This document shows positions 2,288 to 17,861 of a stretch of 24,429 nucleotides of DNA, piece by piece; position 1 is the first letter of the stretch, and each line of letters begins with the position of its first letter. The stretch spans positions 1 to 24,429 of the IMG/VR virus record IMGVR_UViG_3300048836_001196, one strand, 5' to 3'. This DNA comes from a virus. The position numbers and the translations under genes are program-made. The notes beneath the pieces are model-generated. The model made no database searches. It was not told the origin of the DNA and was given only the letters and a program-made list of their open reading frames with translations.

Positions 2288-3283
2288 CTACAAGGGGGCT
2301 CCCAACGGCCGCACCCATCCCCGCTCACTCGCTCGCCTGCTCACGAAGCCTGGCTTCACACCGTACTTGGAGGCGATCTCTTTCGCCGTGTGGTTGGTGG
2401 TCAGGTACTCGCGCTTGATATCGTCCAGGTGCGGATGGGGTGCGGAGCCGGTCCTCCTGATCCCGCGGGCGTACCGTGCTGCTTTCACGGCCTCCGGGGA
2501 TCGGCCCACTCGCTTGGCCAGCTTGGCATCCGACATGGTCCCCAACAACGCCAGTTCTTCCGGCGTCCAGTGTTTCTGAGTCTGGAACGCGGCGATCCCC
2601 ATGAGTGCACGTACAGCAACCACCGATGCAGTGGTTCTTCCCCACTCCGCCGCCAGCTTGCCATCCGGTTTCTGTCCAAGTCGGGCGATCTGCTCTGGTG
2701 TGAAGATCTTCTTCTCCCGGAACCCTGGAATCCCGCGTTTCGTACGCGCATGGTTTACTTGGTTCTTGCTTTTCCCCAACCGCCGGCCGATCTCAGCATC
2801 CGAAGCCGTGCCGAGTTGGGCGACTTCCTCGGCCGTCCACAAATCGCGCTTGCGAAACGGTGGTATGCCGCGATAGTTCCGTGCGTTGCACACAGCCCCT
2901 GGACTCTTTCCGATCAGGGCGGCAACTTCAGTGTCAGGCGCCGTACCCAGCAAGGCGATCCAATCGGCACTCCAATACGCACCAAAGACCGGTATGCCTG
3001 CTCTGTCCCTTGCATCCTTCACCCGCCAGCCCGTCACGCCCAAGATGCGAGCGAGTTGGGCATCGGGCATCGTGCCGAGAAAGGCCCGGGTCTCTGCGGT
3101 CCAAATCTCGGGCGCCCTGAACACCGGAATGCCGCAACGCCGGCGTAGCGCGCGCACGCACTCCCGTGAGACGCCCCAAAGTTTTGCAAGATGCGCGTCT
3201 GGCATCGTCCCCAGGCGGACAATGTCCTCCGCCGCTTCTGGCAAAGCTAGTCGAGCTTTGGTCCATCGATAGCGTTGCACCAT
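2288..3283 (-). CDS. Tandem helix-turn-helix repeat protein upstream of terminase
   Basis: No named function is recognised. The 331-residue protein has six copies of a module of about 45 residues. Each has an aromatic/Thr-x-Glu start, an LGT-x-x-D turn, a short helix with Gly-x-Ser/Thr, a Val...AR helix and GIP-x-F. LG pairs fall near residues 24, 69, 112, 157, 202 and 247. Each module reads as a small Myb/homeodomain-like HTH. The seventh module (about 285-327) differs and resembles the N-terminal HTH of the neighbouring TerS: both have A-x-E/R-I-A/G...YG/FG...V then GWVRP. The start at 3283 has a strong GGGAGG site, two bases after the upstream stop. The protein is probably a modular DNA-binding protein tied to packaging or phage gene control; that role is inferred from context. 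Confidence 0.85.
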   Translation of the reverse strand: MVQRYRWTKARLALPEAAEDIVRLGTMPDAHLAKLWGVSRECVRALRRRCGIPVFRAPEIWTAETRAFLGTMPDAQLARILGVTGWRVKDARDRAGIPVFGAYWSADWIALLGTAPDTEVAALIGKSPGAVCNARNYRGIPPFRKRDLWTAEEVAQLGTASDAEIGRRLGKSKNQVNHARTKRGIPGFREKKIFTPEQIARLGQKPDGKLAAEWGRTTASVVAVRALMGIAAFQTQKHWTPEELALLGTMSDAKLAKRVGRSPEAVKAARYARGIRRTGSAPHPHLDDIKREYLTTNHTAKEIASKYGVKPGFVSRRASERGWVRPLGAPL

Positions 3284-3798: not shown

Positions 3799-4671
3799 TC
3801 AGGTCTGCGGCGCGCGGTTGACGTTCCTGGCGCTCGGCCAAGTGCACTGCAGCACTCTGGCGCCCTCCCGCAAGCGGTCGTAGCAGCGGTCGCCAAGGGC
3901 TTTTTTCAACTCCTGCGCGGGGAGGTTTGAGATCACCACCGTGGGACGGCAGAGTTTGTAGCGGAGGTCGATCACGTCGAACAGCTGCACTTGCTCGGCC
4001 TCTGTGTTGAAGCTGTTTCCCACCTCGTCCAGCACCAGCAGCGCGACGCTGCCCAGGTGCTCCACGACCTCCTCTGTCGTCTGCGGCTCCCAGCTGTCCC
4101 AGGGATTGCTGGCGACCGGCTTCTTGCCCCAGCTCGCGCGCTGCATGGTGATGATTTCCCGGGCGCTGAGAACGCACGCCCACATGCGGCGCTCGCGGAT
4201 CACGTGCTGAACCATGGCGCTGCCGAGGTGCGTCTTGCCCGTGCCAGGTTGCCCGATCAGCCACAGCCCGCCTCCAGCTTCAGGGTTCAGGCCGGCGGCG
4301 AAACCGCGGCACTGAGCCAGCACCTCTTGCTGCGCTTTCCCGGCGCATTCGAAGCTGGCGAACGTTGACGCCAGCATGCGGCCCTTCAGGCCACTCTGGG
4401 CAAGCCTCCGGCGAAGCAGATCGTTCTGCCGTGCCTCTTCGGCTTCGGCCTTGCGCTTTGCTTCCTCCGCCGCGAACCGATCAGCTGCAGCTTGCGTGCA
4501 GGTGGGGCACTTGGTCATCATGCGCGACCCCGGATACACAGGCTTGGAAAGAAACTCGCCGTGTTCCTGGCATTGCTCCGTGCGCCCCACCGCCACAGGT
4601 TCCACAGGCGCATGGCGAGGGTCCAGATCGTCGTCGGTGTCGTCAAGCCAGTCAGCCGATGATGTAGCCAT
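3799..4671 (-). CDS. DnaC/IstB-like replicative helicase loader
   Basis: This AAA+ ATPase should load the host DnaB helicase at the phage origin, as DnaC or lambda P does by different means. From ATG 4671 it has 290 residues. The N-terminus is acidic and then carries a Cys/His cluster (CQEHG, then KCPTC at about 55-58), a probable zinc site seen in many phage DnaC proteins. The ATPase core has Walker A GQPGTGKT (about 140-147), Walker B LLVLDEVGN (about 211-219) and a sensor-like VVISNLPAQEL with a C-terminal YDRLREGARVL. An in-frame TTG at 4680 is possible, but AAGGA lies right against it and is better spaced for ATG 4671. It overlaps the end of the upstream initiator gene by 20 bases, a classic initiator-loader pair. 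Confidence 0.93.
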   Translation of the reverse strand: MATSSADWLDDTDDDLDPRHAPVEPVAVGRTEQCQEHGEFLSKPVYPGSRMMTKCPTCTQAAADRFAAEEAKRKAEAEEARQNDLLRRRLAQSGLKGRMLASTFASFECAGKAQQEVLAQCRGFAAGLNPEAGGGLWLIGQPGTGKTHLGSAMVQHVIRERRMWACVLSAREIITMQRASWGKKPVASNPWDSWEPQTTEEVVEHLGSVALLVLDEVGNSFNTEAEQVQLFDVIDLRYKLCRPTVVISNLPAQELKKALGDRCYDRLREGARVLQCTWPSARNVNRAPQT

Positions 4672-5494
4672 TTTCGTCAATTCCTTCGCTGTAGTTGATC
4701 TTGTCGAAACCAGAGTGCGATGACGGTTTGCGACCTACCCCGCCTGTTGCGTGCTCCTGCTTTGGAGGAAATAAGCCCTGCCAACCACGCGAAATGGAGT
4801 GCTCAATTACCGCCACGGGGTCGTGACCTTGGGCTCGATATTTCTCCAGGTCTTTCAACTGCAACATCGCTCCGGCCTGCGTGATGGGTTTTTTCCTGTC
4901 CGACCTGTCCTTCGTCCACATCGCCCAGGCTTCTCGAGGTAACCATTCCGGCAAGTCGATCTGCTCAGCGTTGAAGAACACCTTCGCGCGCTTTACTGGT
5001 TCCTTTACTGGTTCCTTTACTGGTTCTTTACTGGTTCCGTGGCCCAAATTTGGGCTCATTACCGGGGAAATTTGGGCCGATTGATCGGGAAATTTGGGCT
5101 CATTACCAGGGAAATTTGGACTCATTTCATTGACGGACGGATCAGGGAAATTTGGGCTCATTACCAGGGAAATTTGGGCCAATTGAGGAGCCTCGCTTGC
5201 AGTCGCAGGAGCTATGTCGTCAGGCGATTTCAGGCGGTAAGTGACGACCCGACCTGTCTGCCCTTTGCGTTCGCCGGAGTCCTCGATAAACCCTAACTCG
5301 CGCAACTTCAGCAGGTTCGCCTTCACGGACTTAGGGTCCATATCGGTGACCTTTGACAAATAAGCAATCGATGGAAAGCACAGCATTTCCACGCTCTCTG
5401 CGTTCACGCAGTCGGCCATGGCCACCAACAAGAACTTGGCAGATGCGCGGCCTACAGGTTGTTTCAATGCCCAGGCAATTGCAGGGAAACTCAT
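4652..5494 (-). CDS. Phage replication initiator-like winged-helix protein carrying origin iterons
   Basis: This is likely the phage initiator, functionally like lambda O. The protein has 280 residues. Residues 1-90 form a winged helix of the HTH_36 type (FPSIAYLSKVTDMDPKSVKA, LLKLRELGFIED, GRVVTYRLK). A low-complexity middle follows, rich in SPNFP, EPKFP and AQIS, then KEPV repeats. The C-terminal part (about 190-245) has LPEWLPREAWAMW, then ISRGWQGLFPP, typical of phage replication proteins placed before a helicase loader. The odd middle is explained by DNA: it is an iteron array read through in three frames (see 5046-5175). Start ATG 5494 overlaps the upstream stop as ATGA; the end overlaps the loader gene. 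Initiator function is inferred from domain, context and iterons. Confidence 0.87.
   Translation of the reverse strand: MSFPAIAWALKQPVGRASAKFLLVAMADCVNAESVEMLCFPSIAYLSKVTDMDPKSVKANLLKLRELGFIEDSGERKGQTGRVVTYRLKSPDDIAPATASEAPQLAQISLVMSPNFPDPSVNEMSPNFPGNEPKFPDQSAQISPVMSPNLGHGTSKEPVKEPVKEPVKRAKVFFNAEQIDLPEWLPREAWAMWTKDRSDRKKPITQAGAMLQLKDLEKYRAQGHDPVAVIEHSISRGWQGLFPPKQEHATGGVGRKPSSHSGFDKINYSEGIDENGYIIG
4992..5038. repeat. Four tandem TTTACTGGTTC repeats beside the iterons
   Basis: Four head-to-tail copies of an 11-12 bp unit (12, 12, 11 and 12 bases) end 7 bases before the first iteron. They encode the Lys-Glu-Pro-Val run of the initiator. They may be a second origin element or simple slippage; the sequence does not decide. 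Confidence 0.65.
5046..5175. repeat. Six AAATTTGG iterons, probable phage replication origin
   Basis: AAATTT cores start at 5046, 5068, 5090, 5112, 5148 and 5170, each followed by GGGC or GGAC and mostly preceded by GGG. Spacing is 22 bp except for one 36-bp gap. Because 22 is not a multiple of three, the same DNA is read as SPNF, AQIS or EPKF, so selection is on DNA rather than protein. Direct iterons inside the initiator gene next to a helicase-loader gene match the lambda ori-in-O arrangement. The repeats are seen directly; origin function is inferred. Confidence 0.8.
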
Positions 5495-6153
5495 GCTTCA
5501 ACCACGCTTTCTGTCCGGCCCAGCGCGGCTGCCTGGGCCCATTGCCGCAAGCACTCCACGGCCTCTGGATTGGTGTAAACATCGTCAGCCCAGGCAGGCG
5601 CCCCGTCCTGCGGGTTGAGCCATCCTGTCCAAGCACCCTTCGCAAATGGCGGCAGAAGCAGCGCCCGCAAATAGGTCATTCCATAGGGGATATCGCCCTG
5701 TGGAGTCGGGCGCACAAACCGCACTTGGCGCTTACCAGGCCGGCCACGGACTTCAACCGCCATCTCAACCAGAGTGTCTCCCTCGTCGAAGGCATAGAAG
5801 GATCTGCGCTGAACAACTGGGGTGCTGAACATATCCGGCGTGCTGCCGGGTTGCTGACAGAGTGCGCGCAGCCGAGCAACGTTGAACCGATAGTGCGGTA
5901 CCGCCCCGGGGGCGCCGCCGTGGGCATTGGCCGTCACTTCCAGCACGCCGAGCGTGATAAGCGCATGCACGTGTTTGCGCACCCTCGGCGTCGAAAGTCC
6001 AGCGAGGGCTGCCAACGAGGCCATGGACGCCTTCAGCACTCCGCCGTTGGCGTCGTGCAGCTCCGCCATGGCCAGTGCGGCGCGCAAGCACGCCGCGGGC
6101 TCAATGGCGGCAGCGCGCACCAGCGGCAACACGGGCTCGAAGTGGTGGGTCAT
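5491..6153 (-). CDS. Winged-helix phage replication-region protein
   Basis: This 220-residue protein has no named function that I recognise. The N-terminal third is helical (AAIEPAACLRAALAMAELHD) and runs into a winged helix at about 36-76 (LKASMASLAALAGLSTPRVR, KHVHALITLGVLEVTAN). The rest holds mixed beta segments (RSFYAFDEGDTLVEMAVEVR, then RQVRFVRPTPQGDIPYGMTY) and a C-terminal helix rich in Ala. It joins both neighbours by ATGA overlaps (6150-6153 and 5491-5494), so it is translated as part of the same unit as the initiator. It is probably a DNA-binding replication or regulatory protein; two adjacent winged-helix genes before a DnaC-like gene are common in such phages, but which one binds the origin is unknown. 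Confidence 0.82.
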   Translation of the reverse strand: MTHHFEPVLPLVRAAAIEPAACLRAALAMAELHDANGGVLKASMASLAALAGLSTPRVRKHVHALITLGVLEVTANAHGGAPGAVPHYRFNVARLRALCQQPGSTPDMFSTPVVQRRSFYAFDEGDTLVEMAVEVRGRPGKRQVRFVRPTPQGDIPYGMTYLRALLLPPFAKGAWTGWLNPQDGAPAWADDVYTNPEAVECLRQWAQAAALGRTESVVEA

Positions 6154-10911: not shown

Positions 10912-11202
10912 TCACCGCGAGTGCTGCGCCACGTACTCCCGCAGGACGCCATCCATGCGGGACTGCCAGCCGTCGCCCGTGCCACGGAAATACTCCACGA
11001 CCTCCGGGCTGTACCGCACCGACAGCAGCACCTTCGGCGTATCCGACTTTGGACGGCCGCCCCTTTTCACGGTAGCCCGCGCCAGCATGTCGTCGGTCAG
11101 CTCCGGCAGTTCGTCGTACTCGGCCGCCCCCACTCGGTGGGCGTCCACCTTGGCCAGGTCAGAGCCCAAGGAGCGGGCCGATGCGTTCGATTTCGCGTGC
11201 AT
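10912..11202 (-). CDS. brnA: BrnA-type antitoxin
   Basis: BrnA neutralises the BrnT ribonuclease toxin and represses the operon as a ribbon-helix-helix protein. The 96-residue product has a disordered N-terminus, an acidic middle (YDELPELTDDMLARATVKRG) and a C-terminal RHH of the family type (KVLLSVRYSPEVVEYFRGTG, then DGWQSRMDGVLREYV). Start ATG 11202 has GAGGA about 6 bases upstream and overlaps the end of brnT by 44 bases. Toxin-first order is the known brnTA arrangement. The pair lies between phage units of opposite direction, like a cargo (moron) module. Confidence 0.92.
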   Translation of the reverse strand: MHAKSNASARSLGSDLAKVDAHRVGAAEYDELPELTDDMLARATVKRGGRPKSDTPKVLLSVRYSPEVVEYFRGTGDGWQSRMDGVLREYVAQHSR

Positions 11203-11434
11203 TGCATTTCCTCATGCTGAAGACATGGCGATCCGCGCCACGCGGGGTGTAACCCACGGCCACCATGCGCCCGGCCAACAGGCCAAAGCAGATGATGCGG
11301 GCTTCGCCGTAATCCCGGCGGTCATCCTCGACCTCCAGGGTGTCGCCTTCGAATACGAGGGCAGCATCGGCGAAATCCAGACCGCGTTCGGCGAGCGTCT
11401 TGGCTCGCTTGGCGGGGTCGTAGGTCACTTCCAT
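11159..11434 (-). CDS. brnT: BrnT-type ribonuclease toxin
   Basis: BrnT toxins are RelE-like ribonucleases that stop translation when BrnA is lost. The 91-residue protein carries the family pattern: MEVTYDPAKRAKTLAERGLD, FADAALVFEG, a DDRRDYGEAR segment and a C-terminal VFSMRKCNAREIER. The conserved His/Arg/Glu-rich C-terminus is present. The start ATG 11434 lies immediately after a palindrome and a good -10, so the mRNA may be leaderless. The product is full length for the family with no visible damage, so the module looks functional. Confidence 0.92.
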   Translation of the reverse strand: MEVTYDPAKRAKTLAERGLDFADAALVFEGDTLEVEDDRRDYGEARIICFGLLAGRMVAVGYTPRGADRHVFSMRKCNAREIERIGPLLGL

Positions 11435-15006: not shown

Positions 15007-15236
15007 GCACGAGATGGGTCACTATCCAGAAGGCATCCGATCTGACGGGCTTGCCTGCAACGTTCTTCGATGAGCGCACAGGGCGCTCCGGCCGCTGGCC
15101 AGAGGGCAAGGTGTGGAAGTGGTTCGAAGGCCGCAAGCTGGTCGATACCGTGGCGCTGGACGTCTTCATCGACACGAACAGCAGCCCGCCCAGCACGCGC
15201 GGACGCAAGAAGGCGAGCGAAGCATGCCCGGCGTAA
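15003..15236 (+). CDS. xis: Excisionase-like protein
   Basis: This 77-residue protein (MSTRWVTIQKASDLTGLPAT...) has a winged-helix excisionase pattern: an HTH with WVTIQKASDLTGLPATFFDE, a turn GRSGRWPEG, then KVWKWFEGRKLVDTVALDVF. Such proteins bend attachment-site DNA and steer the integrase to excision. The C-terminal tail is basic (TRGRKKASEACPA). It overlaps the integrase start by 13 bases, so the two are probably made together. The symbol is given by role; the protein is not a close lambda Xis. Confidence 0.78.
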   Translation: MSTRWVTIQKASDLTGLPATFFDERTGRSGRWPEGKVWKWFEGRKLVDTVALDVFIDTNSSPPSTRGRKKASEACPA

Positions 15237-16366
15237 TCAAGAAGGACCAGCACATCCAAATCGACCTGCGCACGGTCGGCTACGGGAAGGAGCGGCTGGA
15301 CCTATTGCCGACACCGGTGAACCTGCGCTACGCCGAAAATCTGCGCAACGAGATTTTGGGCAAGATCGAGCGCGGCACCTTCGCGCTGGCCGACTATTTC
15401 CCAGACAGCCCGCGCGTGAAGAAAGACGCCCCAAGCATGACCATGGGAGAGCTGTTCACCGAATGGCTGAGGGTCAAAGCCCCAGACGTGCAGCACAGCA
15501 CGGCCCACCACTACCGCCAGACCCTGGAGAGCTACCACTTTGACGGCGTGCGCAACACGCGCGCGCCCGCTTTCGGCTTCCGCCAGCTCAGGACGCTGCT
15601 GGCGCAACTGCCTGAGCACCCGAAAACCTTCAACAACGTGGCCAGCGGGCTTCGCATGGTGCTCGAGTATGGCTACCGGGCCAAGATCCTGAAGGAGCCG
15701 CTGCACGAAGAGATCCACATGCGCCGGCACCAGAAGCCCGGACCCGACCCATTCACGCTCGACCAGGTTGAGCACTTCCTCTCCAAGTTCCAGAGCGAAT
15801 GCGCACGCGACTACTACGAGTTCGCTTTTTTCAGCGGACTGCGTCCCTCCGAGCAGATCGCGCTGCAATGGTCAAAGATCGACCTGCGGGCCGGCTCCAT
15901 GCGAGTCGACGAGGCACTCACGCGCGGCAAGCTCAAGGGGACAAAGACGAGCGTGGCGCGAGACGTAGAACTCACACAGCGGGCCCTGGCCGCGCTTGAG
16001 CGCCAGCGTGCCAGAACACAGGTCGCCGGCGGGCGCATCTTCGTGGACGAGGATGGGCAGCCGTTTGCCACCACGGACGGGCCGCTGCGCAATTGGTGGA
16101 AACCGACAATGCGCCGTTCAGGGCTGCGCGCGCGCGACGCCCGACAGAGCCGCCACACCTTCGCCACCGTGTGCCTGATGGCCGGCATCACGCCGGCGTG
16201 GGTAGCGCGCCAGCTAGGGCATTCGGTCGAGATGTTCTACCGCGTGTACAGCCGTTGGATCGACGGGGCCGACAAGGGCGCCGAACGGCGGAAGCTCGAC
16301 GCATTCCTCGGTGACAACCCACCCATGAAGAACGGGACAAGAACCGGGACAAGCCACAAGATTTAG
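15224..16366 (+). CDS. int: Phage tyrosine integrase
   Basis: The 380-residue recombinase starts MPGVIKKDQHIQIDLRTVGY at ATG 15224. It has an N-terminal arm-binding segment (to about 65), a core-binding SAM-like domain (about 72-165) and a catalytic domain. Expected residues are visible: Arg207 (SGLRPSEQ), Lys241 (GTKTSVARD), Arg310-His311 (QSRHTFAT), His333 (QLGHS) and nucleophile Tyr342 (VYSRW). The first His of the HxxR box is Arg307 here, a substitution also known as Tyr or other residues in related integrases. The gene ends 75 bases before a tRNA 3' fragment, the likely attachment core, so this is the prophage right end. Confidence 0.93.
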   Translation: MPGVIKKDQHIQIDLRTVGYGKERLDLLPTPVNLRYAENLRNEILGKIERGTFALADYFPDSPRVKKDAPSMTMGELFTEWLRVKAPDVQHSTAHHYRQTLESYHFDGVRNTRAPAFGFRQLRTLLAQLPEHPKTFNNVASGLRMVLEYGYRAKILKEPLHEEIHMRRHQKPGPDPFTLDQVEHFLSKFQSECARDYYEFAFFSGLRPSEQIALQWSKIDLRAGSMRVDEALTRGKLKGTKTSVARDVELTQRALAALERQRARTQVAGGRIFVDEDGQPFATTDGPLRNWWKPTMRRSGLRARDARQSRHTFATVCLMAGITPAWVARQLGHSVEMFYRVYSRWIDGADKGAERRKLDAFLGDNPPMKNGTRTGTSHKI

Positions 16367-16440
16367 AGCGAATTCAACCCGGTTCTAGGCCCAAAAACTG
16401 GATGTCCAATCAGTGGATTACCGCTTAAATTGGTGCGAAT

Positions 16441-16467
16441 CAGGTTCGATTCCTGTCGGGGGGACCA
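16441..16467 (+). other. tRNA 3'-end fragment, probable attachment site joining two elements
   Basis: CAGG-TTCGATT-CCTG forms a T-arm, followed by an acceptor strand and CCA (16465-16467). No matching 5' half (a C-rich acceptor strand plus D and anticodon arms) lies upstream, so it is a duplicated 3' end rather than a gene. The T-arm resembles that of tRNA-Arg(CCU), a frequent phage target, but identity cannot be fixed from the fragment. The remaining spacer from 16367 to 16440 shows nothing else clear. Confidence 0.72.
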
Positions 16468-16503
16468 AGTAGTCGTTTCATAACGCCTCACTACACCTCT
16501 AAG

Positions 16504-16535
16504 ACCCGCATGTTTCCTAGCATTGCGGGTTTTTT
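16504..16535 (+). terminator. Terminator downstream of the tRNA fragment
   Basis: ACCCGCA (16504-16510) pairs with TGCGGGT (16524-16530) and is followed by a run of T residues. It looks like the original host terminator of the tRNA gene or one carried with the 3' fragment. Confidence 0.85.
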
Positions 16536-16568
16536 GTTGTCTCAATCCATATCACCCCGTAACATGAC

Positions 16569-16633
16569 ATACCAACAAAACGTTGGTGCTTTTAACGGTA
16601 CCTGCACATACCAACAAAGCAGATACCAACAAA
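16569..16633. repeat. Three ATACCAACAAA direct repeats ahead of the P4-type integrase
   Basis: ATACCAACAAA starts at 16569, 16608 and 16623. The first is followed at once by an inverted copy (ACCAAC-AAAAC-GTTGGT, 16571-16587). The last ends 10 bases before the integrase ATG. Placement between attachment site and int suggests arm-type integrase or directionality-factor sites that may also govern int expression. Confidence 0.65.
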
Positions 16634-16643
16634 CGGGGCAGCA

Positions 16644-17861
16644 ATGGCACTCACAGACACTTTCGCAAAGAACGTCAAACCCACCGGATCGACAGTAGGC
16701 AACAAGCACACGGATGGGCAGGGGCTGTACCTGCACGTCAAAGATGCGGGCAAATACTGGCGAATGAGCTACCGCTTCCACGGCAAGCAAAAGACCCTGG
16801 CGCTGGGCGTGTACCCCGCTGTCTCTCTCGCCAAAGCCCGCCAACGGCGCGACAAGGCACGCGAGTTGCTGGCGGACGGCATCGACCCCGGCACAGCCAA
16901 GCGCGACGAAAAGCAGGCGAAGGCGGCTGCCGCTGGCAACACTTTCGAGGCGGTCGCAGAGCAATGGCTGAAAGCTACAGCGGCAAAGCGCGCAGCCATC
17001 ACCCAGGACAAGGTGACGACGTGGCTGCGCAAGGACGTGTTTCCGAAAATCGGCAGGATGCCCATCACCAGCATCGGGCCGCGTGACGTGCTGGCCGTGG
17101 TGCGCAAGATGGAAGCGCGCGGCGTGTTCGACAGCGCCAAGCGCATCGGGCAGATATGCGGGCAGGTTTTCCGCTACGCGGTGGCCGAGGGCACGGCCGA
17201 GCGCGATGTGACCACCGACCTGCGCGGCGCGTTCCAGCACGCAGAGAAAAAGCACTATGCCGCCATCACCGACCCCGTGCAACTGGGCGCGCTGCTGCGG
17301 TCCATTGATGCCTACACCGGGCACCTCTACAGCGTGGCCGCGCTGAAACTTTCACCGCTGGTGTTTCTGCGCCCCGGCGAACTGCGCACCGGCGAGTGGG
17401 CCGAGATGGATCTGGAGGCAGCAGAGTGGCGCATACCCGGCAGCAAGATGAAGATGAAAAACGACCACATCGTTCCGCTGTCGCAGCAAGCCGTAGAGAT
17501 TCTGCAAAGCCTGCACCCCATCACCGGGCATGGGCGCTATGTGTTCCCCAGCCTGCGCACGGGCGAGCGCCCCATGAGCGAGAACACGGTCAACGCTGCG
17601 CTGCGCGGCATGGGCTACAGCAACGAGGTGCATACCGCCCATGGGTTCCGGGCCACGGCGCGCACCATCATGGATGAAGTGCTGGGCGAGCGCGTGGACC
17701 TGATTGAGCACCAATTGGCCCATGCGGTGAAAGATGCCAACGGGCGGGCCTACAACCGCACGGCACACCTGCCAGCCCGGCGCGAGATGATGCAGCGCTG
17801 GGCGGACTACTTGGACAAGCTGCGCGCAGGTGCGGATGTGATCCAGTTCAAAAAAGCATAG
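16644..17861 (+). CDS. P4-type tyrosine integrase of the second element
   Basis: The 405-residue protein has the DUF4102 arm-binding domain of P4-like integrases at the N-terminus (TDGQGLYLHVKDAGKYWRMS, GVYPAVSLAKAR). A core-binding domain spans about 100-190. The catalytic set is complete: Arg243 (FLRPGELR), Lys272 (KMKMKND), His333-x-x-Arg336 (HGFRATAR), His356/His360 (EHQLAH) and Tyr370 (AYNRTAHL). This family inserts satellites and genomic islands at tRNA 3' ends, and here the fragment lies 177 bases upstream in the same direction, the usual geometry. The gene appears intact. It is unrelated in detail to the phage integrase at 15224. Confidence 0.95.
   Translation: MALTDTFAKNVKPTGSTVGNKHTDGQGLYLHVKDAGKYWRMSYRFHGKQKTLALGVYPAVSLAKARQRRDKARELLADGIDPGTAKRDEKQAKAAAAGNTFEAVAEQWLKATAAKRAAITQDKVTTWLRKDVFPKIGRMPITSIGPRDVLAVVRKMEARGVFDSAKRIGQICGQVFRYAVAEGTAERDVTTDLRGAFQHAEKKHYAAITDPVQLGALLRSIDAYTGHLYSVAALKLSPLVFLRPGELRTGEWAEMDLEAAEWRIPGSKMKMKNDHIVPLSQQAVEILQSLHPITGHGRYVFPSLRTGERPMSENTVNAALRGMGYSNEVHTAHGFRATARTIMDEVLGERVDLIEHQLAHAVKDANGRAYNRTAHLPARREMMQRWADYLDKLRAGADVIQFKKA

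Follow-up and report, generated by a model that had tools for sequence, protein, structure and literature searches.

We find that a phage represented here by a 24,429-nucleotide stretch of viral DNA (the window) very probably carries a replication origin inside its own initiator gene, in the DNA that encodes a disordered linker, and that this origin would be of the lambda type, with iterons and a likely unwinding element. The element is a prophage whose likely replication start lies within the initiator gene. That gene (4652–5494, minus strand) encodes 280 amino acids in three parts: a winged-helix N-domain, a linker whose DNA is the proposed origin, and a helical C-domain. Residues 1–271 match positions 59–311 of the PHROG 678 'replication initiation O-like' profile (E = 4.4e-37), and the N-domain is assigned to Pfam HTH_36. 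An AlphaFold model built from 21 homologues contains a confident winged-helix domain (helices 17–28, 43–50 and 54–67; strands 70–78 and 81–88), a poorly predicted stretch of low pLDDT between residues ~92 and 170, and a helical C-domain, again confident, at ~175 to 237. The low-confidence linker is probably disordered, judging from the model, and its DNA consists of the iterons and a second array, which places the arrays between the winged helix and the C-domain. Together, the PHROG 678 and HTH_36 matches and the model bear out a preliminary description of this DNA, made from its letters alone, in which the gene around the array was held to encode a winged-helix initiator; the helicase loader proposed next to it is likewise present, directly downstream of the initiator gene, as a DnaC-like gene (3799–4680, minus strand; PHROG 50 DnaC-like helicase loader, E = 5e-54). 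Directly upstream (5491–6153, minus strand) lies a second winged-helix gene, weakly O-like (phrog_391, E = 7e-5; HTH_36 below cut-off), which carries no iteron array.

The iteron array (5041–5191, minus strand) comprises six 22-bp-type repeats with AAATTTGG cores on the plus strand, four proximal (5046, 5068, 5090 and 5112) and two distal (5148 and 5170), at steps of 22, 22, 22, 36 and 22 bp. These are the six cores at 22-bp steps with one 36-bp step that had been described earlier; the reported start at 5046 holds, and the end moves from 5175 to 5177, where the last core finishes. A seventh match starts at 5044 on the opposite (minus) strand and represents the second half of the 5046 copy, which is palindromic. 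The 24,429 bases hold no further copy of AAATTTGG; chance alone would give 0.63 matches in all, and none of 100 shuffles reached seven. Relative to the minus-strand gene the cores lie in codon phases 1, 2, 2, 0, 1 and 2 (one position in the phase listing is off by one, for the copy with TCC in place of CCC), a 3/2/1 distribution that confirms the claimed use of all three reading frames. The peptides encoded at the cores are AQIS (two), SPNF (two), SPNL (one) and EPKF (one), so that the earlier counts for AQIS and EPKF stand and the three copies of SPNF become two, the 5046 copy reading S-P-N-L-G.

Homologues from viral contigs, bacterial contigs and phage records, reduced to 56 non-redundant genes by removing those >85% identical in the N-domain, indicate what has been conserved; the searches were motif-seeded and therefore favour close relatives. 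DNA self-similarity was scanned over lags of 14–39, and significance meant exceeding all 200 codon-order shuffles; 40 of the 56 had a significant period, with the best lag exactly 22 bp in 24 of these 40 and no multiple of three in 29; the other 16 had no significant period within those lags. Iterons were located in 35 genes with a motif fitted to CC-flanked A/T cores, which misses others such as TGCCAACTTGGCA, the core of the distant homologue L138, spotted by eye. Steps in the 35 genes were 22 bp (77 times), 17 bp (23), 18 bp (9), 24 bp (8) and 36 bp (8), and the iterons occupied three frames in 30 genes, two in four and one in a single gene of the phiV10 type. In five disjoint pairs of relatives, synonymous differences affected 5 of 85 codons keeping their amino acid within cores versus 250 of 775 elsewhere (p = 3e-8). 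The 22-bp period is thus kept while the peptide changes, the pattern by which the preliminary description proposed to judge its claim, and the period, the three frames in 30 of 35 genes and the frozen synonymous sites support the view that selection has kept the array as DNA and not the peptide that it encodes.

A highly improbable alternative is a peptide repeat or minisatellite, grown by slippage in a tolerant linker and without any function as DNA. The linker is indeed predicted to be disordered and tolerates length change, and the closest distinct relative (L003/L101; L003 5318–5560) owes its ten iterons to an in-frame tandem duplication of 102 bp, the duplicated block being the 22-22-22-36 unit. 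The phiV10 clade, with its 18/24-bp in-frame steps and copy-number polymorphism, has the look of peptide-compatible repeats. Against this, a period of 22, which is no multiple of three, is by far the commonest across divergent genes, synonymous sites within the cores are frozen, and core bases covary with the DNA-binding helix (see below); on these three grounds we rejected a peptide-repeat or minisatellite cause and retain the reading of the array as a DNA element. In the phiV10 clade itself (L206–L285), near-identical prophages differ in iteron number, the units gained or lost being 24 bp proximally and 18 bp distally in the linker.

Other loci vary in ways that touch the linker or the reading frame. 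L112 has an in-frame linker insertion of ~85 residues immediately ahead of the iterons (~nt 300–590, gene start 18); by eye it resembles a GIY-YIG nuclease, and it has no Pfam match. In L137/L145 (Paracidovorax anthurii) the arrays are followed at once by a break in the initiator frame, and the C-domain continues in a different one; this is probably a prophage in decay that retains intact array DNA. YdaU of the Rac prophage has no comparable period. A protein search of 401 genomes of one related bacterial family found only 12 carriers, and a phrog_678 family search of 369 genomes returned mostly weak HTH matches, with 8 of 14 control genomes also positive, so that only the best loci were used. 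The bare AAATTTGG pair pattern gave mostly scattered single matches across viral contigs.

Next to a second array lies an iteron that is a perfect palindrome, GCCCAAATTTGGGC (5042–5055); the remaining copies in the window combine AAATTT with a single full half-site. Among relatives, both half-sites are present in 35 of 35 genes at the iteron touching the second array, versus 105 of 182 iterons upstream of it. The second array itself (4991–5040, minus strand), absent from the preliminary description, follows directly after the last iteron of the window when read on the gene strand and consists of GGAACCAGTAAA-type repeats at 11–12-bp steps, with a 15-nt match occurring four times (4991, 5003, 5015 and 5026; steps 12, 12 and 11). 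GAACC occurs at least twice at the same place in 25 of 39 relatives, compared with 2 of 287 control windows drawn from these genes; the distance from one AAC[CA] motif to the next in the 39 relatives is most often 11 bp (33 times) or 12 bp (22 times), and second-array motifs fall in more than one frame in 30 of the 39 genes. Because place, 11/12-bp spacing and use of several frames all recur in relatives, we consider that the second array, on this comparative evidence, is also a DNA element.

Its low duplex stability fits a likely role in unwinding. The gene strand of the second array is A-rich and T-poor with 48% GC, and the 60-bp stretch of lowest stability in the initiator gene starts at 4991, with only 0.8% of window positions weaker. 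The origin could also be correctly placed while the second array serves as a duplex site for the C-domain, the loader or a host protein instead of opening, which we consider unlikely though a serious contender: the sequence is kept beyond its base composition, even in the distant L138 with its different iteron core, the 11–12-bp steps match one helical turn, and the GC content is 48%. The array is nevertheless placed like the AT-rich opening region of lambda and overlaps the 60-bp stretch where the gene is least stable, and the two roles can coexist; we keep the second array as a candidate unwinding element.

The same local instability bears on the 36-bp step, whose spacer (5120–5147) separates the distal from the proximal iterons and which had been suggested to mark either a lost repeat or the unwinding point. 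The step recurs among close relatives; in others an extra iteron divides this part into 17+17 or 18+18 bp, making a lost iteron plausible. An unwinding point at this step is unlikely because the A-rich, least stable repeats adjoin the 5046 copy, at the other end of the array, and we disfavoured it as the opening point.

Recognition of the iterons by the initiator is supported by covariation between residues and bases. The predicted recognition helix, residues 54–67, is encoded at 5294–5335 (minus strand), and each iteron half-site is laid out as two outer bases (−5 and −4), then [ACT]CC, then the A/T centre. Across 39 genes with at least five half-sites each, GT was the commonest outer pair in 25 of 28 genes with Arg54 versus 1 of 11 others (p = 4e-6); the idea linking Arg54 to GT arose after ~20 genes, and 19 of the 28 Arg genes were fetched afterwards. 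When the 79 alignable N-domain columns were ranked, residue 54 came first for G at −5 (omega-squared 0.80, Arg going with G) and residue 58 first for T at −4 (omega-squared 0.75), both lying inside the predicted helix. In a prediction fixed before a further fetch, the residue-54 rule held in three of three new genes and the residue-58 rule (a hydrophobic residue paired with T at −4), which had looked strong in the initial set, in one of three, the other two failing by a narrow margin; for this reason we dropped residue 58 and rely on residue 54 alone. The tree offers only four well-supported independent contrasts, all in the expected direction (p = 0.125; three to four of them in nearly all random pairings), so shared ancestry stays a partial alternative for the covariation. 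In the window the initiator has Pro at position 54, and the outer bases of the cores are GG or AG; in one sister pair, L109 combines Val54 with CC half-sites and L110 combines Arg54 with GT half-sites. Comparison of the relatives shows the initiator and its predicted DNA target changing together.

Covariation also bears on whether the array might be an operator, through which the initiator or another phage regulator controls transcription of the replication genes and not the start of replication. Operators of regulators are likewise palindromic and repeated, the replication operon contains the array, and autoregulation would be compatible with origin function; six helically phased sites ~300 bp into a gene, followed by a conserved low-stability repeat, nevertheless look like an origin and not like an operator, and the covarying protein is the initiator encoded at the array. 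We rate a purely regulatory array as quite improbable.

For the favoured reading, an origin, we propose that the winged-helix domains of the initiator bind the 22-bp iterons, about two helical turns apart, with the four proximal copies forming the core of the complex and the two distal copies lying beyond the 36-bp step. Strain from the bound initiator would open the adjoining, weaker A-rich 11–12-bp repeats, at which the C-domain, together with the DnaC-like loader, would place the replicative helicase. In this proposal the array runs through all three frames because helical spacing matters more than the encoded peptide. Covariation supports docking on the iterons. We infer that the initiator binds physically, that the second array melts, that the helicase is loaded and that replication starts at this site, the opening and loading steps by analogy with lambda (PMC5043065, PMC7466680) and from the local instability; at 48% GC, the second array is less AT-rich than the lambda opening region. 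GC skew of the 24,429-nt fragment gave no informative signal, and since the contig holds only 24 kb of the phage, a second origin may lie elsewhere.

Lambda provides a close precedent, with a proven origin of four iterons inside gene O followed by an AT-rich region (PMC7466680, PMC5043065). The coordinates in its record give iteron steps of 20, 24 and 23 and phases 0, 2, 2 and 1 of gene O; iterons in all three frames are therefore not new. Both systems place A-tract iterons mid-gene in all three frames, the one next to the second array being a perfect palindrome in the window, with an A-rich region after the iterons and a loader gene next. They differ in that the window N-domain is HTH_36 and not Phage_rep_O (no PF04492 match at E up to 1; hhalign probability against lambda O 1.8%), the loader is DnaC-like and not lambda P, the steps are exactly 22 bp with a 36-bp interruption, the opening region is a 48%-GC repeat of 11–12 bp, and distal iterons often lack one half-site. 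Solved structures gave no sequence match to either the window initiator or lambda O, and structural matches to the window initiator include the O protein of E. coli phage Min27. The preliminary description had envisaged a lambda-like origin built on a different initiator fold. Its lambda-type in-gene plan stands; the different fold was dropped on the AlphaFold model and the structural matches, as both N-domains are of winged-helix type; the initiator is a winged-helix protein whose sequence family is not that of lambda O. Stx phages carry six iterons, four of them strongly bound, the extra two adding 13 residues to O (PMC7466680), which parallels the 4+2 layout of the window and the in-frame 102-bp duplication in its closest distinct relative. 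The O protein of Gifsy-2 (PHROG 678) shares a homologous C-domain (hhalign 95.6%), iteron steps of 22, 22, 39, 22 and 22 in three frames and a DnaC-type gene next door, and differs in its lambda-type Phage_rep_O N-domain. We regard this family as modular and the window as one variant of the lambda plan, with no separate principle behind it.

Initiators of the phiV10/Bcep176 'primosomal' type (PHROG 1032 and relatives) likewise combine an HTH_36 N-domain, linker iterons and GAACC-type repeats after them; phiV10 differs in its 18/24-bp in-frame steps and its DnaT-type C-domain (PF17948 in p43, a domain that Pfam does not place in the window initiator), and Bcep176 in iteron steps of 17, 17, 17, 22, 22 and 22. 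Weak fold matches of the window initiator include 4pql and 5kbj, the latter a Rep–DNA complex, both of which we take to be pSK41-type RepA. In pSK41 RepA, an N-terminal winged-helix DNA-binding domain acts on Rep boxes central in rep, and the origin-encoded linker is dispensable as protein (PMC5703833). The resemblance, an N-terminal winged helix with binding sites central in its own gene, is architectural: RepA_N belongs to Firmicute plasmids, its CTD binds primase, and the window initiator has no RepA_N match in Pfam up to E = 1. In SPP1, oriL lies inside gene 38, with initiator-bound direct repeats in the initiator's own gene, an AT-rich unwinding element and a separate loader (PMC6316719), a plan similar to that proposed for the window; SPP1 is a Bacillus phage with a second origin, oriR, elsewhere.

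Elsewhere in the window, a 331-aa protein (2288–3283, minus strand) contains several tandem helix-turn-helix-like units, 'LGTMPDAxLAxxxG...RGIP', and a BrnT toxin/BrnA antitoxin pair lies at 10912–11434 (minus strand). Two tyrosine integrases with different arm-domain classes stand back to back at 15113–17861 (plus strand) and the window contains no tRNA, which together suggest two neighbouring integrated elements.

New here are the family-wide geometry, the second array and the residue–base covariation; the literature covered, which lay outside most subscription journals, contained no description of this origin family that we could find. Tentatively, and at slightly less than an even chance, we propose a widespread initiator family with a two-part in-gene origin, comprising 22-bp iterons and a sequence-specific 11–12-bp GGAACC array that both run through several frames, in which coupled changes of residue 54 and the outer bases would retarget the origin and amount to a readable specificity code. 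More generally, the origin reading presents initiator and origin as one self-contained unit and predicts the origin exactly, to the base, in many prophages in which the initiator bears only an 'HTH' or 'primosomal' annotation. In GC-rich phages the second array is a candidate sequence-specific opening element, and the L206–L285 prophages offer a natural series for copy-number effects. The covariation would give a direct handle on how the specificities of initiators and origins change jointly, with L109 and L110 as a natural sister pair for comparing them.
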